Source: Streptomyces halstedii | Lineage (GTDB): Bacteria > Actinomycetota > Actinomycetes > Streptomycetales > Streptomycetaceae | Direction of reading: 5' to 3' | NCBI GenBank assembly: GCA_000720535.1 | Contig: JOAZ01000005.1 | Location: forward strand, 186,001 to 250,000 | DNA: 64,000 nucleotides | Shown here: positions 28,810 to 55,236 of the stretch, piece after piece | Numbering within the stretch: position 1 is the stretch's first letter | How the letters are laid out: every line of letters starts with the position of its first letter | Notes under the pieces: generated by a model | What the model saw: only the letters and a program-made list of their open reading frames with translations | What the model was told of the DNA's origin: nothing | Databases searched by the model: none | Position numbers and translations under genes: made by a program

Positions 28810-29120
28810 GGCAGGCATCCAAGCACGGCCAGCCGACACGGCGTGCGGGTACTCCCGGTCGGGCGGTCGGCCGAGGAAGGCCCCGCCCGTGCTCCACGGG
28901 GAAGGCACACGGGCCAGGCGGTCCCGCGGTCGGCCGTCCACGGGGCGGGCGAGCTGACCGGTACGGCTGAGGGCCGCGGCCAGTGGCCGGGCCCCACGTC
29001 CGCCCGGTCGCACCGCGACGCGCACGCGCTTCCCCGGGAATCTCCCGCCCCCGCCGGACGTTCACCCGTCGGCGGAGGCTCCCTCCGCACCGTACGGCAG
29101 AGCTGGAGAGTAGAAGAGTC
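28810..29120. other. Intergenic region with the upstream copy of a repeat
   Basis: 311 bp between divergent genes. The only notable content is the segment 29072-29120, including the ribosome site of the DsbA/FrnE-like gene, which recurs at 35334-35382. I see no gene and no clear promoter hexamers. Confidence 0.5.
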
Positions 29121-29135
29121 ATGCGCGTCGAGATC
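29072..29135 (+). repeat. Direct-repeat copy 1 (5' end of the frnE-like gene)
   Basis: This segment, with the leader, the GCAGAGCTGGAGAG ribosome site and the first codons of the DsbA-family gene, recurs with about five of six bases identical at 35334-35395. The two copies are in direct orientation 6.3 kb apart. Confidence 0.75.
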
Positions 29136-29858: not shown

Positions 29859-29926
29859 GTCCCGTCCGCCGTGGCGGCCACGGGCGGGCCCGCGGACCAC
29901 GTGCGGGGCCCCGCCGTGTCGGCGGC

Positions 29927-31471
29927 TCACCCGGGCGTCCGGCAGGTCAGGTCCCTGGCCGGGAGCCGGCCCGTGGTCAGGTAGGTGTTGGCGACCTCGT
30001 CCGCGCAGGACCCCGCGCCGTAGACCCCGTGGCCCTCTCCGCCCGCGACGGTGACCATCCGGGAGCCCCGCAGCGCCCGGTGCATGTTCCGGGCGGCTGC
30101 CAGGGGCGTCTGCGGGTCCCACTCGTTCTGCAGTATCAGCGCCTTGACGCCGTTGTTCACGGTGGTCGGGTGTTCGCCGCCGGGCTTCCAGAAGGCACAC
30201 GGTTTGATGGTGGACGCGAAGTCGCCGTACAGCGGATACCGGGCCTTGTCGCGGACGGCGTCGCGCCGGTACTGCTCGGGGTCGCGCGGCCACGCGGCGG
30301 AGGTGTCACCGCACATGACCGCCCAGAGGCCCGCTATCTCGTTCTCCGGGGGAAGTCCGGGGTCGGGTGCCGGCGTGGCGGGCTCGTCCCCCTCAGCGGC
30401 CTTCTTCAGCTCGGCGACCCAGGCGGCGGCCCTCTGTTCCTGGAAGAAGACGTCGCGCGCGGAGCGGATGTCGTCACCGGTGAGGAGCCCGTCGGCGGTG
30501 GCGACGGGCTCACGGTTCGCCTGGGCGACGATGTCCCAGAAGGTCCTGCGGACCTCGGCCGGGGTCGTGCCGAGCTGATAGACCGTGTGGCGGCGGGCGG
30601 TCCACTCGCTCCACCGCGTGAACGCGGGTTCGGTCCCCTCCGCCATGTCCTGGAAGGTGCCGCGTCCGTACCGCACGGGGTCGACCGCGCTGTCCAGCAC
30701 GAACCGGTCGGCGCGCCGGGGAAACATCTGCATGTACACGGCCCCGAGATAGGTGCCGTACGAGCCCGCGTAGTAGGAGATCTTCGGCTCCCCCAGTGCG
30801 GCGCGCATGACGTCCATGTCGCGTGCCGTGTCGCGGGTGGTGATGTGCCGCAGCCTGTCACCCTCTTCGGCCGCGCACTTGCGGGCCACGTCGCGTGCCC
30901 ACCGCACGTCCTTCGCGAAGGTCTCGGCGTGGTACGCGCGGTCGAAGTCCAGTTCGTCGAAGGACAGACCGCAGCTGAGCGGAGAGCTCCGCCCGATGCC
31001 CCTCGGGTCGAACCCGATGAGGTCGTACCGCTCTTTCACCGCCTGGGGAAGGTACGTCTCCAAGGCGACGGGAAGGTCCAGGCCCGGCGCGCCGGGACCG
31101 CCGGGGTTGAACAGCAGTACGCCACGGCGTTCCTCCGGACTGCTCGCCTTCAAGCGGTTCACCGCGATGTCGAGTCGCTTCCCGCCCGGGTGTTCGTAGT
31201 CCAGCGGCACCTTGAGAGTCGCGCACTGGAACGTGACGGGCGTCTTCGCGTCGCAGTGCCGCCAGTGGAGCTTCTGCTGTGTGTACGGCCGCAGGGGATC
31301 CTTGGCGGAAGCCCCGGAAGCCCCGGAAGCCCCGGAAGCCCCGGAAGCCCCGGAAGCCCCGGAAGCCGCGAAGGCCGTCCCGGATGTCAGCGTCGCGGCC
31401 AGGGCCGCAGCGGTGCAGGCGGCCAGAAGGGGCGCCATGCGCCTGTCGCGCTTCTTGCGTGTGTTTTGCAC
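29927..31471 (-). CDS. Secreted alpha/beta-hydrolase, tripeptidyl aminopeptidase (Tap/SlpD-like)
   Basis: A 514-residue secreted peptidase with the order of Streptomyces tripeptidyl aminopeptidases: oxyanion motif NPGGPGAPG, nucleophile Ser in AGSYGTYLG, Asp in NEWDPQTP and His in GEGHGVY. These enzymes release N-terminal tripeptides, for instance from propeptides. GTG 31471 is preferred because it gives a basic n-region (TRKKRDRR) and a hydrophobic core ending AFA; an upstream frame to 31525 is less signal-like. The mature protein starts with seven Ala-Ser-Gly units encoded by a 9-bp tandem repeat (31307-31369), probably a length-variable spacer. Confidence 0.88.
   Translation of the reverse strand: MQNTRKKRDRRMAPLLAACTAAALAATLTSGTAFAASGASGASGASGASGASGASAKDPLRPYTQQKLHWRHCDAKTPVTFQCATLKVPLDYEHPGGKRLDIAVNRLKASSPEERRGVLLFNPGGPGAPGLDLPVALETYLPQAVKERYDLIGFDPRGIGRSSPLSCGLSFDELDFDRAYHAETFAKDVRWARDVARKCAAEEGDRLRHITTRDTARDMDVMRAALGEPKISYYAGSYGTYLGAVYMQMFPRRADRFVLDSAVDPVRYGRGTFQDMAEGTEPAFTRWSEWTARRHTVYQLGTTPAEVRRTFWDIVAQANREPVATADGLLTGDDIRSARDVFFQEQRAAAWVAELKKAAEGDEPATPAPDPGLPPENEIAGLWAVMCGDTSAAWPRDPEQYRRDAVRDKARYPLYGDFASTIKPCAFWKPGGEHPTTVNNGVKALILQNEWDPQTPLAAARNMHRALRGSRMVTVAGGEGHGVYGAGSCADEVANTYLTTGRLPARDLTCRTPG
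31307..31369 (+). repeat. 9-bp tandem repeat (coding Ala-Ser-Gly)
   Basis: Six perfect copies of GGAAGCCCC and a seventh with one change, inside the peptidase gene just after its signal peptide. Copy number change would alter the protein by whole triplets without frameshift. Confidence 0.9.
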
Positions 31472-31592
31472 GGTGATGCACTTTCTTGTCGGTGACGGGG
31501 CGGGTGCCTGTCGGTGCCGGGGCACGGGGCACGGGGCGCGGCTTCGCCGCCGCTCGGTTCGCGAGGTGCTGTCAGTTCACGGCGAGGTGCCG

Positions 31593-32024
31593 TCAGTGCG
31601 CGGCGAGGTGCCGGCGGACGCACCGCGCGTATTCCTGGAGGCTGTCGGGCTGGTAGCACGCCTGCGTCCTGTTCGCGTACCAGGCCAGGAAGAGGGCGAA
31701 CAGTACGGACACCACGATCGCGAGGACCGACGTCAGCACGCCGGTCACGGCCTTGCCCCGGCCGGCCCCGGTCCGCCCGGCCGTCCTCAGGCCCAAGGCG
31801 CCCAGGACCACGCCGACGGCGCCGAGCAGCCCGCCGACGAGGACGACCGAGGTGAACAGGCCGGTGACGCCCAGCGTCACGGCCGCCGTGGCCGGACCGT
31901 TCCCGGCGGACGGAGGCCGTGTGCCGGCCACGGGGCCCGCGGGTGGCTCCGACGTCGTCCTCGCCGGCACGGCTCCGGCCGTCGCCATGTACCGCGGCAC
32001 CGCCGCCGTCCTTCGCGTCTTCAT
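31593..32024 (-). CDS. Small DUF4190-like membrane protein
   Basis: A 143-residue protein with a disordered N-terminal 45 residues rich in Pro, Ala, Thr and Gly, two membrane segments (GLFTSVVLVGGLLGAVGVVLGALGL and AVTGVLTSVLAIVVSVLFALFLAWY) separated by a short loop, and a C-terminal tail with two cysteines (CYQPDSLQEYARCVRRH). The GxVLGxLGL segment is that of DUF4190. ATG 32024 has GGGAGG upstream. Function is unknown. It sits 121 bp from the peptidase and diverges from the histidine kinase. Confidence 0.75.
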   Translation of the reverse strand: MKTRRTAAVPRYMATAGAVPARTTSEPPAGPVAGTRPPSAGNGPATAAVTLGVTGLFTSVVLVGGLLGAVGVVLGALGLRTAGRTGAGRGKAVTGVLTSVLAIVVSVLFALFLAWYANRTQACYQPDSLQEYARCVRRHLAAH

Positions 32025-32163
32025 CCGCTGTCCTCCCGTTTCGACTGGGCAGGACACGATCATGGAAGCGGGGGGTGGGCGGGCGCATCGCGAGAGGGAG
32101 TGGGAAAGTCCTCCCCCGATCGGGGGAGGGCTTCCGCGCACCGGCCCGCCATACTTGCCGACT

Positions 32164-33465
32164 ATGAACAGGGCAATCCGGCCGGTCCTGCACGGCTCCA
32201 CATATTCGGGCGCGCTGTTCGCCTTCCTCGGCGCGACGGCGAGTGCTCCGCTGCTGCTTCTCGCCGTGCTCCCCGCTCTGATGTGGGGTGCCGCGCCGTA
32301 TGGAGTGCGGGCTGCTCTGGCCCTGCTGGTCTGGGCGGCCCTGATCGCCGCGGTCGGCCTCGTCCCCGCCGTGCGGCGGGTGCTGATCGTGTCCGCCCGC
32401 CGCCTGCTGAAGGTGCGGCTGCCGGACCCGGTGCCGGTACGCGGACCTGTGGGCCCACCCGGTGCCGGCCCGGTTCCCGCTGTGCCGGACCATGCCGTGC
32501 CGTCCGGTGCCGACCGCCTGCGGACCCCCGCCTGGCTGCTGCTGCACGTGGCCCTCGGGTGGACGGGGACACTGGCGAGCGGCGTGCTGTTCCTCATGGG
32601 GCTGGCCCTCCCGGAGGACTGGACGGGCGGCGACACGGAGATCGCCCTGCTCGGCTGGACGCTGCGTCCGGAGCACGGCTGGCAGAGCTGGGTGACGGCG
32701 GCCGTCTGCGTGCTGCTGGCGGTGCTCGTGTGCGTGGCGATGTCGGGCGCTCTGCGGTGGCTGGCGCCACGCCTGCTGGGGCCGTCGCCCGCCGAGCGCC
32801 TCACGCTGGCGGCCGAACGGGAGCGGCGTCTGGCCGAACGCAACCGCCTCGCCCACGAGTTGCACGATTCGATAGGGCACACACTGACGGCGGCGACGAT
32901 CCAGGCGGCCGTGGCGGGAGAGGTGCTCGCCGCCGACCCGGTGGCGGCCCGAGCCGCCCTGCGCAGCATCGAGGAGTCGACCCGGGCCGCGCTTGAGGAC
33001 CTGGACTACGTGCTGGGCGTACTGCGTGAGGAGAAGGCGGAGACGGCGCCGGTACGGACACTGGCCGACCTGCCCGAACTGCTCGACCGGTTGCGGCACA
33101 CGGGCGCCAGGATCGAGCCGGACCTGACCGGTGACCTGGCACAGGTGCAGGGCACGCTGTCCCGCGCGGCGTACCGGATCCTCCAGGAGGGGCTGACGAA
33201 CGCGCTCCGGCACGGGGGCGGCGGTCCGATCCAGGTCGAGTTGGCCGCCGCACCCGACGGGCTGCGGCTCAGCGTGGTCAACCGGACCGGCCACCGGACG
33301 AGCACGGGCGCAGCCGTGGACCGGGGCGTCTTTCCGACGTCCGGGCACGGTCTGCCCGGCCTCGCCGAGCGCATACGGCTGCTTCACGGCGAGTTCGAGG
33401 CGGGCCCGCACGGGGCGGAGCACTGGCGGCTCGCGGTCCGCCTGCCGGTACGGGTGCCGGCATGA
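32164..33465 (+). CDS. Two-component sensor histidine kinase (NarL/HisKA_3 type)
   Basis: A 433-residue kinase with about four N-terminal membrane segments (two before and two after a Pro-rich loop at 90-125), the HisKA_3 box RLAHELHDSIGHTL with phospho-acceptor His234, and a C-terminal ATPase (N box GLTNALRHG, G box GHGLPGLAERIRLL). The family senses envelope or small-molecule signals; the short loops give no clear extracellular sensor domain. The stop overlaps the response-regulator start (ATGA), so the two are a cognate pair. Targets are unknown. Confidence 0.92.
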   Translation: MNRAIRPVLHGSTYSGALFAFLGATASAPLLLLAVLPALMWGAAPYGVRAALALLVWAALIAAVGLVPAVRRVLIVSARRLLKVRLPDPVPVRGPVGPPGAGPVPAVPDHAVPSGADRLRTPAWLLLHVALGWTGTLASGVLFLMGLALPEDWTGGDTEIALLGWTLRPEHGWQSWVTAAVCVLLAVLVCVAMSGALRWLAPRLLGPSPAERLTLAAERERRLAERNRLAHELHDSIGHTLTAATIQAAVAGEVLAADPVAARAALRSIEESTRAALEDLDYVLGVLREEKAETAPVRTLADLPELLDRLRHTGARIEPDLTGDLAQVQGTLSRAAYRILQEGLTNALRHGGGGPIQVELAAAPDGLRLSVVNRTGHRTSTGAAVDRGVFPTSGHGLPGLAERIRLLHGEFEAGPHGAEHWRLAVRLPVRVPA

Positions 33466-34181
33466 CCGGCCCGGACTCGGCCGTCGCTGCCGAGACCGAC
33501 ACCGCCACCACCGGGCCTGCCGCCGCCCCGGTCACCCTCCTGATCGCGGACGACGACGAGGTGACCCGGAGCGGTCTGCGCACACTGCTCGTGGCCCAGC
33601 CACAGATCACGGTCGTCGGGGAGGCCGCCGACGGTGTGGAGGCGGTCGAACAGGCCCGGCTGCTGCGGCCGGACGTGATCCTGATGGATGTGCGCATGCC
33701 GCGCCGCAACGGGATCGAAGCCACCCGGCAACTCCTCGCCGAGTCACTCGACCCCCCGAAGGTCGTGGTGATCACCACCTTCGAGAACGACGACTACGTC
33801 ACCGCCGCGCTCAGCGCGGGGGCCAGCGGCTTCGTGCTCAAACGGCGTCCGGTCCGGCAGATCGCGGAAGCGGTGCGGGTCGTGGCGGCGGGGGAGACGA
33901 TTCTCTTCCCGGCGGCCCTGCGCCGGATGGTCACCGCCCGCCCCCTGAGCTCGGCCGAGGCGTTGCCGAGGGCGGCCTTGACGGGGCGGGAGGAGGCGGT
34001 GCTGCGGATGATGGCCACCGGACAGTCCAACGCCGAGATCGCCCGGGCGCTCACGGTGAGCCTGGAGACCGTGAAGACGCACGTGGGGAACGTCCTGAGC
34101 AAACTCGGCGCGCAGAACCGGACCCACGCGGTGGTGATCGCGTACGAATCCGGCCTGGTGATGCCGGGCTTCACCACCTGA
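33462..34181 (+). CDS. Two-component response regulator, NarL/LuxR family
   Basis: A 239-residue regulator. The receiver domain (about 25-145) has the acidic pocket at Asp30-32 and phospho-acceptor Asp76 (VILMDVRMP); the LuxR helix-turn-helix (about 170-232) reads LTGREEAVLRMMATGQSNAEIARALTVSLETVKTHVGNVLSKL. It starts inside the kinase stop codon. An unusual Ala/Thr-rich 22-residue extension precedes the receiver; the valine-rich core starts at about residue 24, so a later start is possible. It probably acts in the control of nearby or distant genes in response to the partner kinase. Confidence 0.92.
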   Translation: MTGPDSAVAAETDTATTGPAAAPVTLLIADDDEVTRSGLRTLLVAQPQITVVGEAADGVEAVEQARLLRPDVILMDVRMPRRNGIEATRQLLAESLDPPKVVVITTFENDDYVTAALSAGASGFVLKRRPVRQIAEAVRVVAAGETILFPAALRRMVTARPLSSAEALPRAALTGREEAVLRMMATGQSNAEIARALTVSLETVKTHVGNVLSKLGAQNRTHAVVIAYESGLVMPGFTT

Positions 34182-34277
34182 CCTCCGGAGGCGGCCGTAC
34201 GCGCACCGGTGGCTGAGACCTGATCGTGCGAGTCGGCGCGGTCGCGTACGAAGAGCCGGTGAACGGCGCCCGGATGC

Positions 34278-34294
34278 TCGCGCCCCGGGCGCGA
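34278..34294. terminator. Possible short hairpin between convergent genes
   Basis: An 8-bp GC-rich inverted repeat (34278-34285 with 34287-34294) in the 158-bp gap between the convergent response regulator and VOC genes. It is the only structure seen there; weak evidence. Confidence 0.35.
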
Positions 34295-34339
34295 CCACGG
34301 TCTTCGGGGACCGGTGATCCTCCGGTGGCGTGGGGTGTG

Positions 34340-34708
34340 TCAGGCGCGGTCGTGGAGGGTGATCTGGTAGCCGTCGGGGTCGGCGAAGGTGAAGGTCCGG
34401 CCGAAGGGGCCGTCAACCGGCGCGGAGACGATGGTGTGACCGTCGGCGACGAGAGCGTCGTGGATGGCCTGGACGTCTGTGGCGTGAAGCCAGATCGCGG
34501 CACCGATGCCGGGCTGGGCGACGGACGCGAGATCGGGGCCGGGCAGGACGTCGCGCAGCGCGAACGCGATCGGCTGCGTCTCGAAGACGACGGCATGCGG
34601 AGGCCCGGCCTGTGAGCGGACGAGGCCGAGGTACCGCTCGTAGAACGCCTGCGAAACGTCGAGGTCGCGCGCCTGGAGCGAGATGAAGTCGGGGCCGGTC
34701 GCGGGCAT
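34340..34708 (-). CDS. VOC-family (glyoxalase/bleomycin-resistance-like) protein
   Basis: A 122-residue protein with the paired beta-alpha-beta-beta-beta modules of the vicinal-oxygen-chelate superfamily: FISLQARDLDVSQAFYERYLGL, then GAAIWLHATDVQAIHDALVADGHTIV and FTFADPDGYQITLHD. Metal-ligand positions (start His/Gln, Glu) are only partly conserved: the N-terminal ligand is Ser or Gln, and the C-terminal position reads Thr. It may therefore bind rather than turn over its ligand. ATG 34708 has AGAAGGAGC. It diverges from the MarR gene with two operators between, so it is probably the regulator's target and may protect against a small toxic molecule. Confidence 0.88.
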   Translation of the reverse strand: MPATGPDFISLQARDLDVSQAFYERYLGLVRSQAGPPHAVVFETQPIAFALRDVLPGPDLASVAQPGIGAAIWLHATDVQAIHDALVADGHTIVSAPVDGPFGRTFTFADPDGYQITLHDRA

Positions 34709-34728
34709 GCTGGTGCTCCTTCTCTTCG

Positions 34729-34772
34729 TGTCAGCTTTCTGACACGGATCAACGTATGTCAGAATCCTGACA
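34729..34772. promoter_or_regulatory. Two 16-bp MarR operators
   Basis: TGTCAGCTTTCTGACA (34729-34744) and TGTCAGAATCCTGACA (34757-34772) share perfect TGTCAG/CTGACA arms and differ only in the 4-base centre. Their centres are 28 bp apart. The second ends on the A of the marR ATG, so the regulator can block its own transcription or translation start; the first lies 20 bp in front of the VOC gene start. Confidence 0.8.
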
Positions 34773-35230
34773 TGAGTCAAAGCGGTGTCGGTATCGACCT
34801 GGACAAATCACTGGGCTACCTGCTGAAAGAGGCTTCGAGCGCTCTGCGCGCGGCCATGGAGGAGGTGCTGCGACCACTCGGGATGAGCGTGACGCACTAC
34901 TCCTGCCTGGAGCTGCTGGCGCAACGGCCCGGCTTGTCGAACTCCGAGCTCGCGCGTGGCGCCTTCGTGACCCGGCAGTCGATGAACGTGCTGCTCCAGG
35001 CCCTCGAACGGGACGGCTACGTGACCAGGCCCGCGGAGGCACCCGTGGGGAAGGTCCTCCCCGCGCGGCTGACTCCTCGTGGCCGGCGGAGCCTGGCGGA
35101 GGCGACCGTGGCGGTCCGGTCCGTCGAGGTCAGAATGCTGGCCGGTATGACGGAGGCCGAGCAGTCAGGCGCGTTCCTGATCCTGCGGAACATGATTCAC
35201 TCCCTGCGCGATGGCAACGACGGTACATAG
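34772..35230 (+). CDS. MarR-family transcriptional regulator
   Basis: A 152-residue winged-helix protein (helix-turn-helix about 45-90: LAQRPGLSNSELARGAFVTRQSMNVLLQALERDGYVTRPAE, wing with LTPRGRR). MarR proteins bind palindromes as dimers and release them on binding phenolics or oxidants. Its ATG lies at the edge of the second operator with no ribosome site in front, which suggests a leaderless transcript and tight autoregulation. The VOC protein diverging from it is the likely target. After the stop at 35230 only the decayed repeat follows. Confidence 0.9.
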   Translation: MSQSGVGIDLDKSLGYLLKEASSALRAAMEEVLRPLGMSVTHYSCLELLAQRPGLSNSELARGAFVTRQSMNVLLQALERDGYVTRPAEAPVGKVLPARLTPRGRRSLAEATVAVRSVEVRMLAGMTEAEQSGAFLILRNMIHSLRDGNDGT

Positions 35231-35333
35231 CCCGCGCCCCGGCACACGTCTCGCCGCGCCCGGCCACCGGACAGGAGTGCGGCCGAGCGTGAAAATCCGT
35301 GCGGGCGGCCTCGAAATCCGGCAGCCCCCGGTC

Positions 35334-35395
35334 GCGGAGGCTCTTCCGCGCCGGTGCGGCAGAGCTGGAGAGAGAAAGAGCTGTGCGCGTCGAGA
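35334..35395 (+). pseudogene. Decayed copy of the 5' end of the frnE-like gene
   Basis: This segment repeats 29072-29135: the same leader, the same GCAGAGCTGGAGAG ribosome site, then GTG-CGC-GTC-GAG-ACC-TGA where the intact gene reads ATG-CGC-GTC-GAG-ATC-TGG. The frame stops after five codons. Nothing further of the gene follows; the next feature is the convergent NUDIX gene ending at 35407. It is a remnant of a duplication or a recombination scar and marks the edge of the accessory patch. Confidence 0.75.
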
Positions 35396-35406
35396 CCTGA
35401 GGCGGG

Positions 35407-35949
35407 CTATCGGAGCGATGCGATGACCCGTGCCCGCAGCGTCTCGTCAGTGATGGTGTCCACGCCTCGCCACGCGTAGCCGTTCACTTCCTCCTCCTGG
35501 AGCGTCACGGCCTGGTCTCCGGTCGCGCGGAAGACGTACCGGAAGTCCGCGTGCCAGTGGGCGCCCTCGCCCTTGCTGTCGTTCGCGGGGATCGCGTGCA
35601 CATCGATGTGTACGGGCGCGGGCTGGACGGGGGCGAGGCTGAGCGTCACCCCCGTTTCCTCGACCAGTTCGCGTAGTGCCGCGCCCAACAGGTTCGTGTC
35701 CTCCGGCTCAAGGTGTCCGCCCGGGGTCAGCCACTTGCCGAGCGCGTTGTGATGAATGAACAGAGCCTCGCCCCGGTCGTTGACGAGAACGGCGCCCGCG
35801 GTGACGTGTCCGCGGAACTCCTTCCTGCTGGTCACGTCGGCCCCCTGATCCAGTAGTTCAGTCAGCGGGGCGAGTGCGTGCTTGTCCTCGGGGTACGTGG
35901 CTGCGTACGCGGCCAGGGTCGTGTGGATGTGGTCTGCCGCGATGGGCAT
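35407..35949 (-). CDS. NUDIX hydrolase
   Basis: A 180-residue protein with a Nudix box at about residues 78-101 (GHLEPEDTNLLG, then RELVEETGV). It is one residue longer than the classic GX5EX7REUXEEXGU spacing, as occurs in some Streptomyces subfamilies; the RE-EE metal ligands are intact. Such enzymes hydrolyse nucleoside-diphosphate-linked compounds. FRGHVTAGAVLVNDRGEALFIHH begins the core; about 45 helical residues precede it. The start lies 4 bp after the stop of the SAH-hydrolase-like gene, so they form one unit; the substrate could be a nucleotide derivative related to that gene's product. The 3' end converges with the frnE remnant. Confidence 0.88.
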   Translation of the reverse strand: MPIAADHIHTTLAAYAATYPEDKHALAPLTELLDQGADVTSRKEFRGHVTAGAVLVNDRGEALFIHHNALGKWLTPGGHLEPEDTNLLGAALRELVEETGVTLSLAPVQPAPVHIDVHAIPANDSKGEGAHWHADFRYVFRATGDQAVTLQEEEVNGYAWRGVDTITDETLRARVIASLR

Positions 35950-35953
35950 CGGA

Positions 35954-37075
35954 TCACCTGTTGTAGTAGTGCAGCCAGGTAGCCGCGATGGCTTCCCGGT
36001 CGGCGGTGGGGACCTCGTACATGGCAGGGTCGAGCCCGCCGCGAGCCAGCAGGGCCGCACCCGCGAGGATCTCGGCCTGGACGAGGAAGATGAACGGTCC
36101 GACGCTCGCGCCGTGGATGAAGTTGACGGCCTCGCCGCCATTCAGCAGATAGAAGTAGTGCCCGGTCGTGCTGTAGCGGCTCACGTGCGTGCCGGCGCTG
36201 TCACGGATGTAGCCCGAGGGCAGTCCGCGCAACTCCAACTCGTCCTCCGAGCTGGTCACGCTCGCTACATAGGCCCCGTTCTTGAGCTGCGGGAAGTCCT
36301 CGCCGCGCAGCGACAGGGCCCCTGTGGCGCACAGGACGAGTCCGGCCGTGGCTATGGCCTGGTCGCGGTCGCGGGCTACCTCGAATCCCCGTGACATGGC
36401 CTGTGCGCGCCGTACGGGGTCGATGTCGTAGACGATGACCCGTACGCCCTTGACGTGCAGCAGACGGGCGATGCTGGACCCGAGTTTGCCGAACCCGAGG
36501 ACGAGTGCCGGGCGACCGTGCAGGATGTCCCCGCGCTGCCGTAGCAGCGCTTCGGCGGAGAACACGACGGACTGTCCGACCAGAAAGTCTTCTGGGTCTT
36601 TGAGGGGTGAGCGAGCCACGGACACGACGGGGCACGGCAGCTTGTCCCGTTCGGCGTACCGCTTGTGTCCGTTCTCGGTGTCCTCCACCACGCCGAGGAC
36701 GGTCCCCGAGAACCGTTCACACAAGGCTTCCAGGCAGGGAGCGAAGTACCCGCCCACGTCGAGCAGAACGACACGCTCGCCGGCTGCCCTGGTCTCCAGG
36801 TAGGTCACGGCGGTATCGGGGTCGCTGAACGTATCGCGGGACAGCACGTCGCATGCCACGGTCCGCTCGATCTCCCGGCGGGCACTCGCGTGGATGGACT
36901 TGGGCTTGGGCAGAACGGCGCGCAGACGCGACACCGTGCCCACGGCTCCGACGAACGCGGGCCGTTCGGGCAGCACATGAGTGATCAGCAGCGAGGACGG
37001 ACGTTCGGTCGGCGTGAACCTGTCGGCGACCTTGCCGAAATACGCGTCGAGCCGCGCACGGTCGGTGGTTTCCAT
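35954..37075 (-). CDS. S-adenosylhomocysteine-hydrolase-like NAD-binding protein
   Basis: A 373-residue protein with the adenosylhomocysteinase layout: an N-terminal substrate domain, then a Rossmann NAD domain with GFGKLG at 194-199 (VLGFGKLGSSIARLL) and VIVYDIDP. It is shorter than true enzymes (about 430-480 residues). The active-site loops are changed: the family LDDGGD reads LDVGGY (105-110), the EET motif reads EDT (131-133), and the cysteine near the C-terminal side of the site is Gln. Lys159 and Asp163 seem to match the catalytic Lys/Asp pair. It may act on another adenosyl or nucleoside thioether. ATG 37075 has AAGAAGGGG; a GTG at 37081 is too close to it. Confidence 0.82.
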   Translation of the reverse strand: METTDRARLDAYFGKVADRFTPTERPSSLLITHVLPERPAFVGAVGTVSRLRAVLPKPKSIHASARREIERTVACDVLSRDTFSDPDTAVTYLETRAAGERVVLLDVGGYFAPCLEALCERFSGTVLGVVEDTENGHKRYAERDKLPCPVVSVARSPLKDPEDFLVGQSVVFSAEALLRQRGDILHGRPALVLGFGKLGSSIARLLHVKGVRVIVYDIDPVRRAQAMSRGFEVARDRDQAIATAGLVLCATGALSLRGEDFPQLKNGAYVASVTSSEDELELRGLPSGYIRDSAGTHVSRYSTTGHYFYLLNGGEAVNFIHGASVGPFIFLVQAEILAGAALLARGGLDPAMYEVPTADREAIAATWLHYYNR

Positions 37076-37100
37076 GGGCACCCCTTCTTGGTGTCGCCGG

Positions 37101-37349
37101 TTACTGGACGCGCTCCGGCACGGCTACTTCTGAGAACTCCCGCACGAACGTCAAGTGCCGGGTTCGGCCCTCGTGCGCGATGGACGGCTCGCCGAACTCG
37201 TCGGCGCTGCCGGTGGGCGCGGTAGCCCGTTGGCAGTCGCGGTCAAGGCAACGAGCGTTCGCCGTGGTCCCGACCGCAGCGCGGTGGCGCATACAGAAGC
37301 GAGCGGATCGGAAAGAACCGCCCGCCCACTCGTCGCGTCTCCCTCGCAT
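37101..37349 (-). CDS. Small protein, possible zinc-ribbon-like DUF
   Basis: An 82-residue frame ending 25 bp before the SAH-hydrolase-like gene. From about residue 16 the sequence (RFCMRHRAAVGTTANARCLDRDC, then AHEGRTRHLTFVREFSEV) has Cys19, Cys34 and Cys39 with a C-terminal His, and resembles small Streptomyces proteins with a degenerate metal-ribbon and a GHxxF-type end. Codon use is good from there on. The first 15 residues overlap the preceding frame in another phase and have no ribosome site, so the true start is uncertain, perhaps inside. No function assigned. Confidence 0.45.
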   Translation of the reverse strand: MRGRRDEWAGGSFRSARFCMRHRAAVGTTANARCLDRDCQRATAPTGSADEFGEPSIAHEGRTRHLTFVREFSEVAVPERVQ

Positions 37350-37506
37350 TGCCGGCGAACGCGGTGCGGCTCGGCCGAGACGGTGGGAAGCGGTTCTGCG
37401 GATCGAACGGCACGATGATCTGCGGGCCGTACGTCCTTCCGCTGTCCCGGGAGGCTCGCGGCGTCATCGCGCCGCTCCTGGTGATGCTCCCGCTGTCGTG
37501 GTTCAC
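37243..37506 (-). CDS. Small hypothetical protein overlapping the next gene
   Basis: An 87-residue frame from GTG 37506 (GAAGGGCGGG just upstream). The first 60 codons have high GC third positions, and the protein contains RTYGPQIIVPFDPQNRFPPSRPS, a plausible folded segment. The last third overlaps the following small gene and is rich in Arg. It lies 78 bp from the end of the XRE regulator gene on the same strand and reads into the SAH-hydrolase-like operon. I do not recognise a family; it may be a shorter protein than drawn. Confidence 0.4.
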   Translation of the reverse strand: MNHDSGSITRSGAMTPRASRDSGRTYGPQIIVPFDPQNRFPPSRPSRTAFAGNARETRRVGGRFFPIRSLLYAPPRCGRDHGERSLP

Positions 37507-37584
37507 CGTCCCGCCCTTCACATCTGGCTCCGTGTGCCAGAACCTTAGGTACGTCAGGAGGAGAGGGGGCGGCCGTATTCGCGG

Positions 37585-38430
37585 CTATTCTCGCGGGATC
37601 ACAGTCCGCTTGGCCCGCATGAGCGCACGATGGGCCCCGGCTCCGTAGAGCGCGTTCCTCTCCAGTGCTTCCCACGCCCGGACGTGCAGTGCGACGTCCT
37701 CGGAACCGTCCAGCCACATCTCCGCGTGCCATGTCTCGGTGATCACCAGGCTGTCGTCGTGGACGGAGAACCCGACACCGGCCGGTAGGTTCATGTCCGC
37801 TTCGAACGGCACGATTCCTACCCTCACGTTTCCCGGACCGAGCCGCCCGACAATCCGGTCGAGCTGCGCTGAGAGCACAGCGGGCCGGCAGGGACGGGCC
37901 CGCAGGGCTCCCTCCCAGACGAGGAAGTGAAACGACCGGGTCTGATCCATGAGGATGTCCTGTCGCCCCATGCGCGCCCGCACGGCGGCTTCTATGTCCC
38001 TGGGGGCGGTATGGAGCGTGGAGTACCGGGTCAGGACGGAACGCGCATAGTCCGCGGTCTGCAAGAGGCCCGGTATCAGCGAGGGATCGAAACTGCGGCG
38101 GAAACGCGTTCTCTGAGCTTGTGCCCGGTGCGCGTCCTGCACGGCACGATATCCGCCCGCCAGTTGTCGCCGCCAGGATCGGTACTGCGTCTCCAGCCCA
38201 CGCAGGCGCCCGATCAGCTCTCCTGTCGCCCCCGGGTTCCCGGTTCCCTCGGCCCATGCCGTGAGATCGGCGACGGTCGGTGTCTGCTTGCCGTTCTCCA
38301 GCTTGCTGACCTTGGACTGTCCCCACGCAAGCCGACCGGCCAGTTCGCGGCCGGTGAGCCCGCCCTCGGCACGCAGCTCCCGCAGACGCGCACCGAGGGA
38401 GACCCGGGCTTGCTGAAAGTCCGTACTCAC
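37585..38430 (-). CDS. XRE-family regulator, Scr1-type antitoxin-like
   Basis: A 281-residue protein with an N-terminal helix-turn-helix (about 14-65; LGARLRELRAEGGLTGRELAGRLAWGQSKVSKLENGKQTPTVADLTAW) and the C-terminal domain of Streptomyces Scr1/DUF5753 proteins (FDPSLIPGLLQTADYARSVL, then MGRQDILMD, SFHFLVWEGALR and GNVRVGIVPFEAD). Scr1 proteins normally act with a small DUF397 partner in a toxin-antitoxin-like pair. None is adjacent here; instead the GTG start overlaps the stop of a DUF6879 gene (GTGA). It probably regulates this cassette. Confidence 0.9.
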   Translation of the reverse strand: MSTDFQQARVSLGARLRELRAEGGLTGRELAGRLAWGQSKVSKLENGKQTPTVADLTAWAEGTGNPGATGELIGRLRGLETQYRSWRRQLAGGYRAVQDAHRAQAQRTRFRRSFDPSLIPGLLQTADYARSVLTRYSTLHTAPRDIEAAVRARMGRQDILMDQTRSFHFLVWEGALRARPCRPAVLSAQLDRIVGRLGPGNVRVGIVPFEADMNLPAGVGFSVHDDSLVITETWHAEMWLDGSEDVALHVRAWEALERNALYGAGAHRALMRAKRTVIPRE

Positions 38431-39167
38431 CCAGCGGACGGTACCTGAGCCGTGAACTCCCGGTACGGGACCGCGTGGTGCCATGCGGCATCCCGGGTCT
38501 GGCAGGCCCGGAGCACTTCGGCCGGGTCGGTGACCAGCTCCATGCCGATGGTGCGCTCTCCTTCGAAATGGAAGCGCGCCACGGTGCGGGAGTCGAACAG
38601 CCAGAAGTCCGAGAGGTTCACGCCGTAGCGCTCGGCATCGTCGCGCCACAGGTGGCGGATGTCCTCACCGGCCGCGACGTTCGTCCGAGCGCACGCGAGG
38701 AGGTACCGCTGTCCGGTGGTCGGCGGGTCGTCCACGATCCGTGCCCGCTCGAACCGCTTGCCGCCTTCCACCATGCGCCGCACGTTGGCGAACCACGGGT
38801 GCCCGACTTCCCCGGCGGTGTCCCCGGTCCGTAGGAACTCCTGATACGACGGCATCGCTTGATCGGACGCGTACCCGCTCCGGGTCTCCAGCCTCCACGC
38901 GGTGTGCTCGAACCCGTCGTTGATCTTCTGCTGCGGAACGAACTCCGGCACGTGCGTGACCTCCTTCGGGGAGAAGTTCGCCAGCAGCTCCCGGGGGACG
39001 ACCACGAACGCTTCTCCCTCTTTGACGTGTGTGAGCTGTGCCACGTCCGTGGGGTCGGTCACCGCATCCCCTTGTACGAGCACTTCCCCGGTGTCCAGGT
39101 CCTCGTACAGCGTCGGGCAGTCGCCGACTCCGGACGTGCTCCCGAGAACCCGCAGTCGCCTGGCCAT
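38427..39167 (-). CDS. DUF6879 family protein
   Basis: A 246-residue protein. The N-terminal 65 residues (MARRLRVLGSTSGVGDCPTLY, EVLVQGDAVTD, EGEAFVVVPRELLANF) form a small module often seen in front of DUF6879. The rest (FEHTAWRLETRSGY, KRFERARIVDDPPTTGQRYLL, NVAAGEDIRHL, DFWLFDSR, VARFHFEGE) is the DUF6879 domain known from Streptomyces accessory loci beside XRE regulators. No activity is known. ATG 39167 has AGGGGAA. The stop overlaps the XRE start, so the two are produced in fixed ratio, as in toxin-antitoxin-type pairs. Confidence 0.82.
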   Translation of the reverse strand: MARRLRVLGSTSGVGDCPTLYEDLDTGEVLVQGDAVTDPTDVAQLTHVKEGEAFVVVPRELLANFSPKEVTHVPEFVPQQKINDGFEHTAWRLETRSGYASDQAMPSYQEFLRTGDTAGEVGHPWFANVRRMVEGGKRFERARIVDDPPTTGQRYLLACARTNVAAGEDIRHLWRDDAERYGVNLSDFWLFDSRTVARFHFEGERTIGMELVTDPAEVLRACQTRDAAWHHAVPYREFTAQVPSAG

Positions 39168-39441
39168 GGCTGTTCCCCTCGTCGTCGGACACATCAGCGC
39201 GAGCATGATGATCCGGAGGGGGCCCTGTCCGGGGTGATTCTCGATTATTCGCGGACATCCGCTCCCGGGATCAGTCGCGCCGTCCGATACCACGGCCCGG
39301 CGACTATGTCCTCCCTGCGTCTCGGGCACGGGAAGGGGCGCTCCGGCCACGCCCTGAGCTGTGGGAACAAGCAGTCCTTGAGGCAACCGCACAGCTTCCC
39401 GTGATTGACGCCGCCACCGGGTGACGGTCAGGCTGGGCCGT

Positions 39442-40509
39442 ATGGAGACCTCTTCGCTCGATCAGGTCAGGGCCGCCGAGTTCGCCTCGGGTGGAGCCAC
39501 CGCGTACCTCGCCACCGCCAGTTGTGGGCTGCTGCCCCGCAGGGCCGTCGAGGCGGTCACCGCGCTGGCCGAGCAGAACGCCACGGGCAGCCGCGGCGGG
39601 GCGGGCAGTTTCGACGCGGTGGACCGGGCCAGGGCCGGCTTCGCCCGGATCGCCGGGGTCGATCCCGGCCGGGTGGCCACCGGTGGTTCGGTCGCCGTCC
39701 ATGTGGCCCTGGTCGCGGCGTCGCTGCCCGCCGGGGCCGAAGTCCTGGCCCCGGAGGGTGAGTTCTCCTCGGTCGTCAGCCCGTTCGCCGTGCGCGGCGA
39801 CCTGAGGACGCGGTACGTGCCGCTGGCCGGCCTGGCCGAAGCCGTACGGCCCGAAACCGCGCTCGTCGCCCTCTCGGCCGCCCAGTCCTCCGACGGCAGG
39901 GTGGCCGACCTGGACGCGGTACGCGCGGCGGCCGCCGCGCACGGGGCCCGCACGCTCCTGGACGCCAGCCAGTCGGCGGGCTGGCTGCCGCTGGACGCCG
40001 GAGCGTACGACTACACCGTCACCGGCGCGTTCAAGTTCCTGATGTGCCCCCGTGGTACGTCGTTCCTGACCGTCACCGAGGAGGCGCAGGAGACCCTGCC
40101 CGTCCTGTACGCGGGCTGGCTGTCCGCCGAGGACCGGTGGAACAGCAACTACGGCCCGGTACGGCGACTCGCCGCCGGTGCCCGGCGCTACGACGAGCCG
40201 GTGGCGTTCCTCGCGTACCACGGGGCGGAACACTCGCTCGACCTGGTGGCCGAGGCCGGCGTCGACGCCTTGTACGAGCACGCCACCGGCCTCGCCGCCC
40301 GCTTCCGGGAGGGCCTGGGCGCCCTCGGCCACCCGGCGGTGCCCGGTACGTCCGCGATCGTCGCCGTACCCGGACTCGGCGCCCGGGAGCCCGAGCTGGC
40401 CGACGCCGGGGTCCTGGTCTCGAACCGGGCCGGGAACCTGCGCGCGGCCTTCCACCTGTACAACACCGAGGCCGACGTCGACCGCGCGCTGGAGGTGCTC
40501 GCCCGCTGA
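39442..40509 (+). CDS. Class V aminotransferase-fold PLP enzyme
   Basis: A 355-residue fold-type I PLP enzyme. PLP-lysine Lys198 lies in TVTGAFKFLMCPRG and the ring-nitrogen Asp174 in LLDASQSAGW, the CsdA/isopenicillin-epimerase-like class V pattern. Members include cysteine desulfurases, kynureninases and epimerases. It lacks a partner SufE or a cysteine in the usual desulfurase loop, so a desulfurase role is unlikely. The substrate is unknown. ATG 39442 was chosen over a GTG 21 bases upstream since the family N-terminus matches; the ribosome site is weak for both. Confidence 0.85.
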   Translation: METSSLDQVRAAEFASGGATAYLATASCGLLPRRAVEAVTALAEQNATGSRGGAGSFDAVDRARAGFARIAGVDPGRVATGGSVAVHVALVAASLPAGAEVLAPEGEFSSVVSPFAVRGDLRTRYVPLAGLAEAVRPETALVALSAAQSSDGRVADLDAVRAAAAAHGARTLLDASQSAGWLPLDAGAYDYTVTGAFKFLMCPRGTSFLTVTEEAQETLPVLYAGWLSAEDRWNSNYGPVRRLAAGARRYDEPVAFLAYHGAEHSLDLVAEAGVDALYEHATGLAARFREGLGALGHPAVPGTSAIVAVPGLGAREPELADAGVLVSNRAGNLRAAFHLYNTEADVDRALEVLAR

Positions 40510-40637
40510 CGTACGGGCCGCGCGTACGGGCCGCGCGGGACGGGCCGCGTGGGACGGGCCGCCGAGTGGTCACGGCCGTCGCGGGGCGGGCGCGGGCCGT
40601 GCCGCCGGGGCCTCAGGACGGCCCGGCCCCAGGCCGC

Positions 40638-41672
40638 CTACGCCGAGTCCCGGCGCACCAGTTCGGTGGGGAGGATCACCGCGGCCGGGTCCTCCCCGCC
40701 GATCTGCGCCAGCAGCACCCGTACCATCTCCGCGCTGATCCGGTCCCACGGCTGGCGGACCGTCGTCAGCTCGGGGCGGGCGGCGAGCGCGGCGGGAGAG
40801 TCGTCGAAGCCGCCGACCGCGATGTCCCCCGGCACCCGCCGGCCCGCCCGTTCCAGCGTGGTCAGCACACCCTGGGCCATCAGGTCGGACCCGACGAACA
40901 CCGCGTCGATGTCCGGTGCCCGCTCCAGCAGCAGCGAGGCCGCCGCCTCCCCGCCCGCCCGGCTGTAGTCGCCCGGCACGACCAGCGCCTCGTCGTAGGG
41001 CAGCCCGCACTCCGCGAGGGTCGCCCGGTAGCCGGCCAGCCGTTCCACACCGCCCGGGGTGTCCAGCGGCCCGCTGACCGTGGCGATCCGGCGCCGCCCC
41101 GACGCGTACAGATAGCGGACCATGTCCCGGGCGCCGCCCAGGTCGTCCGCCGCGACGTAACTGACCTTCGACCCCTGCCCGAGCGGCTTGCCGCAGGCCA
41201 CCAGCGGGACACCGGCCTCGTGGAGCTGGGCCGCGACCGGGTCGCCGGAGTGGCTGGAGACCAGCAGCACCCCGTCCACGTGCCCGGCGATGTACCGCAT
41301 GTTCCGGCGGCGTTCGGCCTCCGTCCCGGCGATCATCAGCAGCAGCGGGATGTCGTGCGCGGCCAGCGCGGCGGTGCAACCGCGCAGCAGCACGTTGAAG
41401 TTGGGGTCCTCGAAGAACCGCTCCTGCGGCTCGGTCAGCAGGAACGCCACGGAGTCGGAGCGGCCGGTGATCAGCGACCGGGCGTGCCGGTTGACGGTGT
41501 ACCCGGTCCGGCGGATGGCGGACCGGACCGCGTCGAGGGCGGCCGGGCTGACGTGGTGACCGCCGTTGAGCACCCGGGAGACGGTGCCCCGGGAGACCCC
41601 GGCCTCCCGGGCGACGTCATGGATCGTCGGCGGCCGGCGGCGTCCCGTGCCGTTGTGTTCTGTGCGGCTCAT
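40638..41672 (-). CDS. LacI-family transcriptional repressor
   Basis: A 344-residue repressor with an N-terminal LacI headpiece (TIHDVAREAGVSRGTVSRVLNGGHHVSPAALDAVRSAI, residues about 15-55) and a periplasmic-binding-like core (VDGVLLVSSHSGDP, DDLGGARDMVRYL, VFVGSDLMAQGVL, VGGFDDSPAA). It lies in front of the ABC importer operon that ends at 41715, on the same strand but after it, and near the GH42 gene. The imperfect palindrome CTGTGAGCGTTCACAG at 44864-44879 next to the ABC promoter is the best candidate operator. The likely inducer is a galactoside or its breakdown product. Confidence 0.92.
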   Translation of the reverse strand: MSRTEHNGTGRRRPPTIHDVAREAGVSRGTVSRVLNGGHHVSPAALDAVRSAIRRTGYTVNRHARSLITGRSDSVAFLLTEPQERFFEDPNFNVLLRGCTAALAAHDIPLLLMIAGTEAERRRNMRYIAGHVDGVLLVSSHSGDPVAAQLHEAGVPLVACGKPLGQGSKVSYVAADDLGGARDMVRYLYASGRRRIATVSGPLDTPGGVERLAGYRATLAECGLPYDEALVVPGDYSRAGGEAAASLLLERAPDIDAVFVGSDLMAQGVLTTLERAGRRVPGDIAVGGFDDSPAALAARPELTTVRQPWDRISAEMVRVLLAQIGGEDPAAVILPTELVRRDSA

Positions 41673-41714
41673 GGTGCGTGATCTTTCATCAAGGGGAGCC
41701 CTGGTGAGGAGCTG

Positions 41715-42572
41715 TCAGGACTTTACGGCGCCGGAGAGCAGGTCGAGACTCCAGAACCGCTGGATCACCAGGAACAGGGCGATCAGCGGGATGATCGCCA
41801 GCAGTGCGCCGGTGATGACCAGCGTGTAGAGCGCCGGGGTGGTGGCGCCCTGCTGGAGCAGCGTGTACAGCCCCAGCGTGACCGGGAACTTCTCGTCGTC
41901 GCCCAGCATGATGTACGGCAGCAGGAAGTTGTTCCAGACCGCGACGAACTGGAACAGGAACACCGTCACCAGCCCCGGCAGCATCATCGGCAGCGCGAGG
42001 GTGCGGAAGATCCGCCACTCGCCGCCGCCGTCCATCCGCCCGGCCTCGATCACGTCGGCGGGCACGGCCGCCGACGCGTAGATCCGGGCCAGGTAGACGC
42101 CGTACGGGGAGAGGATCGCCGGCAGCAGCACCGAGAGGTAGGAGTCGGTCAGATCGGCCTTGGCCAGCAGCAGGTACTGCGGAACGGCCAGGATCACCGG
42201 AGGCATCAGCACCCCGGCGAGCAGGATGTTGAAGACGGTCTCCTTCCCGCGGAAGCGGTACACGGCCAGCGCGTACCCCGAGACCGCCGACACCGCCGTG
42301 GACAGCAGGGCGCCCACCCCCGCGTAGAAGGCGGAGTTGGCCATCCACCTCCAGTACACGCCGTCGCGGTACGCCGAGAGGTCGGCGACGTTGTCGGCGA
42401 AGCCGGAGCCGGGCAGGAAGGTGAAGGTGGAGAACAGCTCGCCGCCGGACTTGGTCGAGGCGACCAGGACCCAGGCCACCGGCAGCAGGCAGTAGACGGC
42501 ACCGCACAGCAGGACGGCGGTCGGCACCAGCGGGAAACGGCGGCGGCCGGCCGCGAGGGACGGAGTGCTCAT
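41715..42572 (-). CDS. Sugar ABC transporter permease (MalG type)
   Basis: A 285-residue CUT1 permease with six membrane segments. The EAA loop is VPADVIEAGRMDGGGEWRIFRTLALPMMLPG. It is the last gene of the importer operon; its ATG overlaps the preceding permease's stop (ATGA). The C-terminus (IQRFWSLDLLSGAVKS) is as usual for the family. Together with the permease and lipoprotein upstream it would import the substrate of the divergently encoded GH42 enzyme. Confidence 0.92.
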   Translation of the reverse strand: MSTPSLAAGRRRFPLVPTAVLLCGAVYCLLPVAWVLVASTKSGGELFSTFTFLPGSGFADNVADLSAYRDGVYWRWMANSAFYAGVGALLSTAVSAVSGYALAVYRFRGKETVFNILLAGVLMPPVILAVPQYLLLAKADLTDSYLSVLLPAILSPYGVYLARIYASAAVPADVIEAGRMDGGGEWRIFRTLALPMMLPGLVTVFLFQFVAVWNNFLLPYIMLGDDEKFPVTLGLYTLLQQGATTPALYTLVITGALLAIIPLIALFLVIQRFWSLDLLSGAVKS

Positions 42573-43495
42573 CGGGACTCTCCCCGCTTCGTACGGGAGT
42601 TGGCCGCCTTGAGGAAGCCGAAGGACAGGGCGAGCGTGGCCAGCGCGATGATCACGGCCTGCGCCGCCGCCGCGTGGATGTCGTTGTTGACGAAGGCGTC
42701 CTGATAGACCTTCATCAGCGGACTCCAGGTGGTGGAAAGCGAGTTGGTGAGCGGCTTCAGGGTGGTCGGCTCGCTGAACACCTGGAGCGTGGCGATGACC
42801 GAGAAGAAGAACGTCAGCACCAGCGAGGGTGCCACCATCGGGATCTTGATCCGCAGGGCGATCTGGAGCTGCGAGCAGCCGTCCAGCCGGGCCGCCTCGA
42901 AGATCTCGGCGGGGATCGCCCGCAGCGAGGTGTAGATGACGATCATGTTGAAGCCGGTGCCGCCCCAGACCGCGATGTTCGCCAGCGCCAGGTACAGCGG
43001 TCCGCCGTCCAGCAGGTCGGGCCGCGGCAGCCCCGCCTTGTCGAGCAGGAAGTGGAAGGGGCTGACGTCGGGCAGGTACAGGAAGCCCCACATCAGCGCG
43101 GCGACGACACCGGGGATGGCGTACGGCAGGAAGATCGCCAGCCTGCTGAAGCCGCGCAGCCGCAGCCGGTCGGTGTCCAGGAGCAGCGCGAACAGCAGGG
43201 CGAGCCCCAGCATCACGGGGACGACGATCAGGCCGTAGCCGAGGATCCGCAGCGTCCCGTGGAGCAGTTCGGAGTCGGAGAGCGCGTCCGTGTAGTTGGC
43301 CAGGCCCGCCCAGATCTCGTCGCGGGCGCCCTTGCCGAGGCCGAGTCCCCTGACCCGCGTCCTGCGGAAGCTGAGGTGGACGGCGTATCCGATGGGCAGC
43401 GCGAAGAAGAGCAGGAAGAGGACGGCGGCGGGGACCAGGAAGGCGTACGGGGCGCTCTTGACCCCGTACGGCCTCCTGCGGGGTGCGCGTGTCAC
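42569..43495 (-). CDS. Sugar ABC transporter permease (MalF type)
   Basis: A 308-residue CUT1 permease starting at GTG 43495, which overlaps the lipoprotein stop. It has a short basic cytoplasmic start, then six membrane segments (first APYAFLVPAAVLFLLFFALPIGYAV). The EAA loop reads IPAEIFEAARLDGCSQLQIALRIKIPMVAPS. No ATPase gene adjoins; in Streptomyces such CUT1 systems usually share MsiK. Confidence 0.92.
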   Translation of the reverse strand: MTRAPRRRPYGVKSAPYAFLVPAAVLFLLFFALPIGYAVHLSFRRTRVRGLGLGKGARDEIWAGLANYTDALSDSELLHGTLRILGYGLIVVPVMLGLALLFALLLDTDRLRLRGFSRLAIFLPYAIPGVVAALMWGFLYLPDVSPFHFLLDKAGLPRPDLLDGGPLYLALANIAVWGGTGFNMIVIYTSLRAIPAEIFEAARLDGCSQLQIALRIKIPMVAPSLVLTFFFSVIATLQVFSEPTTLKPLTNSLSTTWSPLMKVYQDAFVNNDIHAAAAQAVIIALATLALSFGFLKAANSRTKRGESR

Positions 43496-44808: not shown

Positions 44809-44863
44809 GGTTTCTCCCCTGACGAGACGGCCGAGCGCATCGGCCCCACTGGCCGGAATGACG

Positions 44864-44906
44864 CTGTGAGCGTTCACAGTAGAGAAACGAAACCGACACT
44901 TGTCAA
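44864..44906 (-). promoter_or_regulatory. Promoter and LacI-type operator of the ABC operon
   Basis: On the minus strand TTGACA (44906-44901), exactly 17 bases, then TCTACT (44883-44878) form a consensus-like promoter. The palindrome CTGTGAGCGTTCACAG (44864-44879, 7 of 8 arm bases paired) overlaps the end of the -10 box and the start point, a classic repressor position. Confidence 0.75.
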
Positions 44907-44929
44907 TGGTTGTTGCTGTGCGGTTATGT
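44900..44929 (+). promoter_or_regulatory. Likely promoter of the GH42 gene
   Basis: TTGTCA (44900-44905), 18 bases and TTATGT (44924-44929) read toward the GH42 gene. The -35 boxes of the two divergent promoters share the same few bases, so one polymerase would exclude the other, and a repressor at 44864-44879 could affect both. The remaining 5' leader to 45129 has no gene. Confidence 0.5.
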
Positions 44930-45011
44930 TGGCTCAAGCCGGTACGGCACAACGCACGCCGGACGGCCGCGTCAGCGTGTGGCTGTGTGCACGTTCCCAG
45001 ATTTCGTCCCA

Positions 45012-45120
45012 CCGAGCCAGCCCCGAGCCATTCCCGGCCACCCCGAGCCACCCCCTTCGATCCCCGAGCCACCCCCCTCGACCCACGAGATCCCCTCGAC
45101 CTACGAGATCCCCGAGCCAG
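45012..45120 (+). repeat. Degenerate short repeats in the GH42 leader
   Basis: Five copies of CGAGCCA and two of ACGAGATCCCC occur within about 110 bp ending at the ribosome site. The strand is very C-rich and would be unstructured as RNA. No function is evident; slippage or a leader-binding site are possible. Confidence 0.5.
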
Positions 45121-45129
45121 GAGACGTCC

Positions 45130-55233: not shown

Positions 55234-55236
55234 GGT

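Follow-up and report, generated by a model that had tools for sequence, protein, structure and literature searches.

The question raised by a 64,000-nucleotide stretch of the Streptomyces halstedii genome (contig JOAZ01000005.1, positions 186,001 to 250,000; hereafter the window) is whether a compact set of genes at window positions 35334-39441 forms one system, and how it came to lie there. This cassette encodes a DUF6879 protein, an XRE-type regulator, an S-adenosylhomocysteine hydrolase (SAHH)-like enzyme and a NUDIX hydrolase, in a genome (labelled G000) of 7.74 Mb in 105 contigs. It is probably mobile cargo made up of two modules. The fuller reading, in which this cargo was stranded by a mobile element and comprises a regulator set over a nucleotide enzyme pair, seems to us evenly poised between right and wrong.

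Four minus-strand genes are supported by Pfam searches. The DUF6879 gene (38427-39167, 246 aa) matches PF21806 with 166 bits over residues 84-239, and its residues 1-80 are a fused small protein that is usually encoded by a separate upstream gene of ~63-90 aa. Its stop overlaps by GTGA (38427-38430) the start of the XRE-type regulator gene (37585-38430), whose product is of the Scr1/WhiJ type with matches to HTH_31 (53 bits) and DUF5753 (121 bits). The SAHH-like NAD-binding enzyme (35954-37081, 375 aa), identified by AdoHcyase_NAD (54 bits), Foldseek and family alignments, is followed at 4 bp by its NUDIX partner (35407-35949, 180 aa; Pfam NUDIX 56 bits); an ATG at 37075, the start point of many homologues, is the more likely start of the SAHH-like protein and would give 373 aa. 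An earlier reading made from the letters of the window (the sequence-only reading) had noticed both the GTGA overlap and the 4-bp spacing, and had placed DUF6879 where a DUF397 partner is normal, which agrees with the lack of any DUF397 match by Pfam in the six cassette frames. Its count of six packed genes was right for these four and probably wrong for two small ones. The two small candidates (37243-37521 and 37101-37349) partly share sequence in different reading frames, have negative codon scores (-0.16 and -0.12 per codon), and match no family in Pfam, NCBIfam or PADLOC up to E 0.1; a tblastn search of 73 loci at E 1e-3 returned just the window's own copies (L007, L044). Lacking relatives and showing poor codon use, they were rejected, and the small frames in 37082-37584 are probably not genes. 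The XRE and SAHH-like genes therefore stand 503 bp apart (37082-37584), and the layout is one of two gene pairs; the gap would hold the promoter and operator of the enzyme pair. The DUF6879, SAHH-like and NUDIX genes score about +0.2 per codon and the XRE gene just +0.02. An Rfam search of 35000-39500 for an SAH riboswitch or other RNA gave no match up to E 1.

The edges of the cassette bear on its arrival. On the plus strand, window 35334-35399 is 82% identical to window 29072-29137, which comprises the ribosome-binding site and the opening codons of an intact gene (29121-29858) that we take from its sequence to be frnE-like; the repeated 5' end stops after the codons V-R-V-E and marks the left insertion edge. 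In G029, G052, G053 and G057 (loci L139-L142, genes called by our own script) the frnE-like gene lies immediately before amtV, with gaps of 69-96 bp. In the window the frnE-like gene and amtV (39421-40509) are ~9.5 kb apart, with the frnE fragment at the edge of the cassette. The amtV-LacI-ABC genes are contiguous in G029 without the cassette, and the G029 amtV match begins at window 39427, beside the right insertion edge (39168-39420), a segment with no protein or DNA match and no relative in the loci fetched. Different parts of the surroundings match different genomes, as in a mosaic: the glyoxalase-MarR part matches G011 (window 34276-35330, 89%) and G003 (34311-35330, 86%), 35380-37086 (the enzyme pair and little else) matches G012 DNA at 89%, and 35407-37086 matches G025 at 82%, in every case at another place in the genome. 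Taken together, the adjacency of frnE and amtV in relatives, the remnant, the contiguous G029 locus and the mosaic flanks show that an older frnE-like copy before amtV took up the cassette at about its fifth codon. The remainder of that older copy was looked for and not found. The decayed gene copy and the insertion or rearrangement suspected by the sequence-only reading are thus borne out, and guanine-plus-cytosine content is lower across 34.2-39.4 kb (0.67-0.69) than in the whole window (0.72). The genes at window 29859-35330 (hydrolase, two-component pair, glyoxalase and MarR) are also missing between frnE and amtV in the four relatives, and parts of them match other genomes elsewhere.

Across genomes the stable unit is the SAHH-like/NUDIX pair. 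Relatives of the SAHH-like enzyme were found in 35 loci of the genome collection, and most named relatives are Streptomyces records. Within the genus 48 of 199 genomes match at E <= 1e-15, some of the weaker matches being probably ordinary SAHHs; in a phylum-wide sample, E <= 1e-35 was reached in two of 396 genomes, both of the window's genus. Pooling gave 87 loci, including the window and three viral contigs, and collapsing their SAHH genes at 99.9% identity left 65 distinct loci, 55 in a close clade (at least 64% identical) and 10 in a second clade. Among the 54 close loci that have 300 bp or more of downstream sequence, window included, NUDIX adjoins the SAHH-like gene in 52; the two misses have a short NUDIX piece (L030) and a NUDIX match from residue 35 (L097). 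Adjacency also holds in nine of the ten second-clade loci (the miss being L082), where the pair is 54-57% identical to that of the window. Farther afield, the NUDIX gene lies on the other side of the SAHH-like gene in Paraburkholderia (L043), and none was seen beside the Agrobacterium and Aeromonas relatives in the neighbourhoods viewed. A trio of MFS, HD phosphohydrolase and SAHH-like genes occurs on two Lactiplantibacillus plasmids that were viewed (L094, 5969-9161; L095, 6928-10125), and 40 plasmid records of that genus have an SAHH-like match. The NUDIX box R-E-L-x-E-E-x-G is conserved at 97% or more in 53 rows (redundant rows kept), with D for the first glutamate in most of the eight rows printed. 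Searches with the NUDIX protein against plasmids, phages and the PDB gave wide NUDIX kinship and indicated no function. The matching NUDIX domain also occurs within longer annotated proteins (~490-590 aa) at the Streptomyces plasmid loci L214 (5001-6776) and L215 (4001-5470).

Relatives of both modules reside in mobile elements. Three viral contigs carry the SAHH-NUDIX pair. In L196 it is flanked by tail and endolysin genes on one side and an integrase on the other, in L195 it follows endolysin and holin genes where the contig ends, and in L194 it neighbours a serine integrase. A DUF6879 relative is present in 15 viral contigs, 11 of them distinct (L198-L200, L210 and L211 are one sequence), and every one has one or more markers for tail, lysis or integrase. 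In Streptomyces phage Kromp (L193, 4766-6405), genes 31-30-29 encode the small protein, DUF6879 and XRE (E 5e-21, 5e-19 and 2e-36) and sit between lysis genes and integrase; this position, typical of a prophage accessory gene (moron), is taken up only by relatives of the cassette (L196, Kromp, L198, L206, L212). In G012 (L074) an aminotransferase gene is interrupted near codon 205 by a stretch of ~9.6 kb with a serine integrase, a terminase small subunit and the run small-DUF6879-XRE-SAHH-NUDIX. Inspection by eye of the region from about -7.8 to +1.8 kb around its SAHH-like gene showed neither a capsid nor a portal gene, so that the element could be a satellite of a phage or what is left of a prophage. 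More broadly, a phage or integrase hit was obtained in 12 of 43 close loci scanned up to ~9 kb on each side (L010, L017, L021, L023, L027, L029, L032, L039, L087, L090, L091, L093), these 43 belonging to the 46 close loci used below, and also in L038, outside the 46; none of six second-clade loci and none of seven control stretches was positive, with some marker seeds coming from the very contigs and loci scanned. Streptomyces integrative elements are described as decaying and carrying varied cargo (PMC9513070).

Which regulator accompanies the enzyme pair varies. Upstream regulators were scored in the window and in the 46 distinct close loci that have 2.9 kb or more of upstream sequence, 47 in total. 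DUF6879-XRE stands upstream of the pair, in the same order and on the same strand, in five: the window, L032, L035, L074 and L077. Ten others carry a second putative XRE class (L017, L020, L022, L023, L028, L034, L040, L090, L195, L196, the last two assigned by way of phrog_5823), and a third class, next to DUF218, is present in nine more (L024, L025, L039, L042, L085, L088, L089, L092, L093). Both classes were defined by clustering our own gene calls, and the members given to Pfam matched helix-turn-helix models below cut-offs only; the other 23 of the 47 loci were read by eye and left unclassified. Between the window and G012 the SAHH-like enzymes are 94% and the NUDIX proteins 89% identical, while the XRE proteins are 34% identical, and this disparity in the alignments shows that the regulator was exchanged. 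The XRE match adjoins DUF6879 in all 37 loci whose rows were read by hand (L001-L008, L143-L171). A separate small gene upstream of DUF6879 is matched in 31 of these (tblastn, E 0.01); the small protein is fused in the window, and tblastn detected none in L006, L146, L153, L162 and L164. Fused proteins of 246-252 aa also occur in L174, L179, L182, L185 and several viral contigs, and separate small proteins with DUF6879 in L173, L175, L176, L178 and L180; fusion of this kind suggests a joint function of the two parts. At L184 (6056-7857), three tandem DUF6879 copies are followed by one XRE. The model of the window's DUF6879 protein (predicted local distance difference test, pLDDT, 84.6) resembles the TrmB sensor domain and phospholipase D fold weakly (E 0.01-0.09, best 0.0097; template modelling, TM, score 0.35), so that a sensor role for DUF6879 is a lead from modelling.

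The SAHH-like protein is an SAHH-fold protein with an NAD domain, judging from its AlphaFold2 model (pLDDT 88), which Foldseek aligns with SAHH 3x2f at E 5.2e-20 and TM 0.79. Its score with TIGR00936 (ahcY) is 69.8 bits, far under the cut-off of 497.6. The catalytic residues of rat SAHH are H54, D130, E155, K185, D189 and H300. Residue-by-residue alignment keeps K185 and D189 (K161 and D165) and gives D134 for E155, V109 for D130 and S277 for H300; the H54 position falls outside the aligned part, and its counterpart is probably H35. K59, P60 and S62 are invariant across 25 sequences. The protein ends in ...AATWLHYYNR and lacks the K-P-D-H-Y-R-Y tail, which in SAHH reaches the partner subunit. 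With two catalytic residues and the tail missing, it is no ordinary SAHH. By the residues kept and replaced, oxidation of a 3'-hydroxyl would be retained and later steps would be altered.

The reading that we favour joins these observations as follows. Module A, the small protein-DUF6879 fusion with the XRE/DUF5753 DNA-binding protein, would be a regulator in which DUF6879 senses a signal and modulates XRE, and XRE would control both its own operon and an enzyme promoter in the 503-bp gap. Control of the SAHH-NUDIX module by XRE could be right or wrong with equal ease. In Module B, NUDIX would cut a substrate of the nucleoside-diphosphate type to a 5'-nucleotide, and the SAHH-like protein with bound NAD+ would oxidise the 3'-hydroxyl of a nucleoside or nucleotide; this 3'-oxidation chemistry, predicted from fold and residues, we hold with middling confidence. 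The most likely benefit would be that a lysogen or a carrier of the element disarms or modifies a nucleoside-type toxin or signal, although detoxification or immunity as the purpose is a tentative suggestion.

A number of observations weigh against this reading. As to origin, phage or integrase markers were sought in three parts of the window (1-34200, 28000-47000, 45001-64000) and none was found, so the phage origin of the window copy is argued by analogy with its relatives, from which we infer a mobile element as its source. Among 50,697 phage records DUF6879 was matched in one and the SAHH-like protein in three, each over at most 62% of the protein; four of the 20 chromosomal DUF6879 loci scanned had a marker, and in L202 and L203 the DUF6879 module is on the strand opposite the phage late genes. 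As to chemistry, the loss of the D130 and H300 counterparts leaves the reaction itself unsure. PADLOC matched the cassette enzymes nowhere apart from NUDIX at E 0.011, and XRE through helix-turn-helix matches. As to control, the search for repeats that might serve as operators gave nothing clear: 37082-37600 holds a single 11-nt pair (91% alike), and 39150-39430 has no such pair. Shuffled labels needed as few changes as the DUF6879-XRE label on a quick tree in 84 of 500 trials. The tree count itself speaks for repeated pairing: the label has to be gained or lost four times, and well supported branches force each of these changes; one labelled locus (L035) is a long branch.

The reading that best survives beside our own is that two unrelated cargo modules from the same kinds of element became neighbours by chance, and that DUF6879-XRE does not control the enzymes. 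It is a serious possibility, if short of a probable one. DUF6879 is present in 52 of 61 genomes of the genus, with 211 matches (summed by hand), and among the matches listed three are known to lie at an SAHH-NUDIX pair (G000, G012, G055), the remaining copies having been judged from SAHH-like positions and fetched surroundings, with G028 excluded for an SAHH-like gene at a contig end. In 42 of the 47 pair loci the 3 kb upstream yielded no DUF6879, which weighs against our reading as well. The two modules thus occur largely apart, an outcome that the sequence-only reading had named as one that would refute it. Relatives of both take phage cargo positions, and 503 bp lie between XRE and the SAHH-like gene. 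Against chance stand the five loci with shared order and strand, which fall in four places on the tree, when about 0.06 loci in 47 would be expected under uniform spread (211 copies, 61 genomes of ~8.4 Mb each, 3 kb), a null that ignores shared mobile habitats. The occurrence of two DUF6879-XRE subfamilies with nearly identical enzymes, in the window and G012, also speaks against it. A fixed six-gene system is rejected on the DUF6879 counts in the 61 genomes and the survey of the 47 loci; the sequence-only idea of regulator and nucleotide enzymes as one module survives in that the neighbours recur in five of 47 loci, and fails in that they do not make one fixed system. We do not favour toxin and antitoxin roles for the XRE pair either: when fourteen XRE-DUF397 pairs were overexpressed, they acted as regulators (PMC10364602).

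A self-regulated anti-phage or exclusion module, with enzymes that produce or break down a modified nucleotide and a regulator pair that turns these enzymes on in lysogens, would suit the location of relatives beside phage late genes and integrase. Pif of pSAM2, a NUDIX protein, is reported to act in conjugal immunity, and an HD-Nudix-XRE cluster is common to actinobacterial integrative elements (PMC3218068). We think this module unlikely given the PADLOC result for the enzymes and the presence of relatives of the pair in a biosynthesis-like gene cluster as well. That cluster is the gene run of six second-clade loci viewed (L037, L078-L082): thymidylate-synthase-like, carbamoyltransferase, glycosyltransferase-like, methyltransferase, histidine phosphatase, epimerase, SAHH-like and usually NUDIX, with a cytidylyltransferase cluster that holds four of the six loci. 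By its gene content the run looks like a nucleoside-type biosynthesis cluster, and it lends itself to a further explanation, that the cassette enzymes are tailoring enzymes for a nucleoside synthesised elsewhere in the cell. Such a role would have a precedent in AgmF, an SAHH-like enzyme which dehydrates angustmycin C and has H56, D129, K184, D188 and H299 as essential residues (PMC8599513). This explanation, too, appears rather improbable: in the clustering of gene calls those pathway genes occurred in the six second-clade loci only, and so not in the window or the close-clade loci that the clustering covered; and AgmF D129 and H299 would have no counterpart, going by rat D130 and H300. An AgmF-type dehydratase is not favoured for want of those two essential residues. 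An ordinary SAHH paralogue for methyl-cycle clean-up beside a housekeeping NUDIX is very improbable, for all the SAHH fold with its NAD domain and the annotation of some relatives as adenosylhomocysteinase or SAH hydrolase, in view of the low ahcY score, the replaced equivalents of rat D130 and H300, the missing tail and the restriction of E <= 1e-35 matches to two of the 396 genomes sampled in the phylum.

The cassette that we read as stranded mobile cargo draws attention to an enzyme pair that is conserved and moves horizontally, together with a three-part regulator that includes DUF6879. If nucleotides are their substrates in lysogens, the enzymes would give phages a new route for altering the metabolism or immunity of Streptomyces, and control by XRE-DUF6879 can be tested directly thanks to the exchange of regulators. 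Our literature search found no paper on DUF6879, most subscription papers lying outside its reach, and no description of the SAHH-like/NUDIX pair in the titles and abstract openings that it covered. That the pair is an undescribed nucleotide immunity or detoxification module of Streptomyces temperate phages and integrative elements, in which NUDIX releases a nucleotide whose ribose the SAHH-like enzyme then oxidises, with a swappable regulator in which DUF6879 is a new type of XRE sensor, is a quite unlikely proposition taken as a whole.

We regard the cassette as a variant of known prophage and integrative-element cargo, and it can be compared with four known systems. As in prophage accessory genes, relatives lie beside phage late genes and integrase, whereas the window copy has no adjoining phage genes. 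The HD-Nudix-XRE cluster with Pif likewise combines NUDIX and an XRE regulator as mobile-element cargo (PMC3218068); in the cassette an SAHH-like protein replaces HD, and Pfam finds no HD among the cassette proteins. With AgmF, the window enzyme would share the character of an SAHH-type NAD-dependent enzyme whose substrate is not SAH (PMC8599513). It differs in being paired with NUDIX and in having V109 and S277 for AgmF D129 and H299, a correspondence inferred through rat SAHH. The XRE-DUF397 pairs (Scr1/Scr2, WhiJ/BldB) are described as having a small partner, occurring in many copies per genome and often lying beside a HATPase gene (abaA type), and WhiJ9 activates a neighbour gene (PMC10294661, PMC10364602). 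The window regulator shares with them its N-terminal XRE helix-turn-helix and C-terminal DUF5753; its partner, however, is an upstream DUF6879 fused to a small protein, where theirs is a downstream DUF397.

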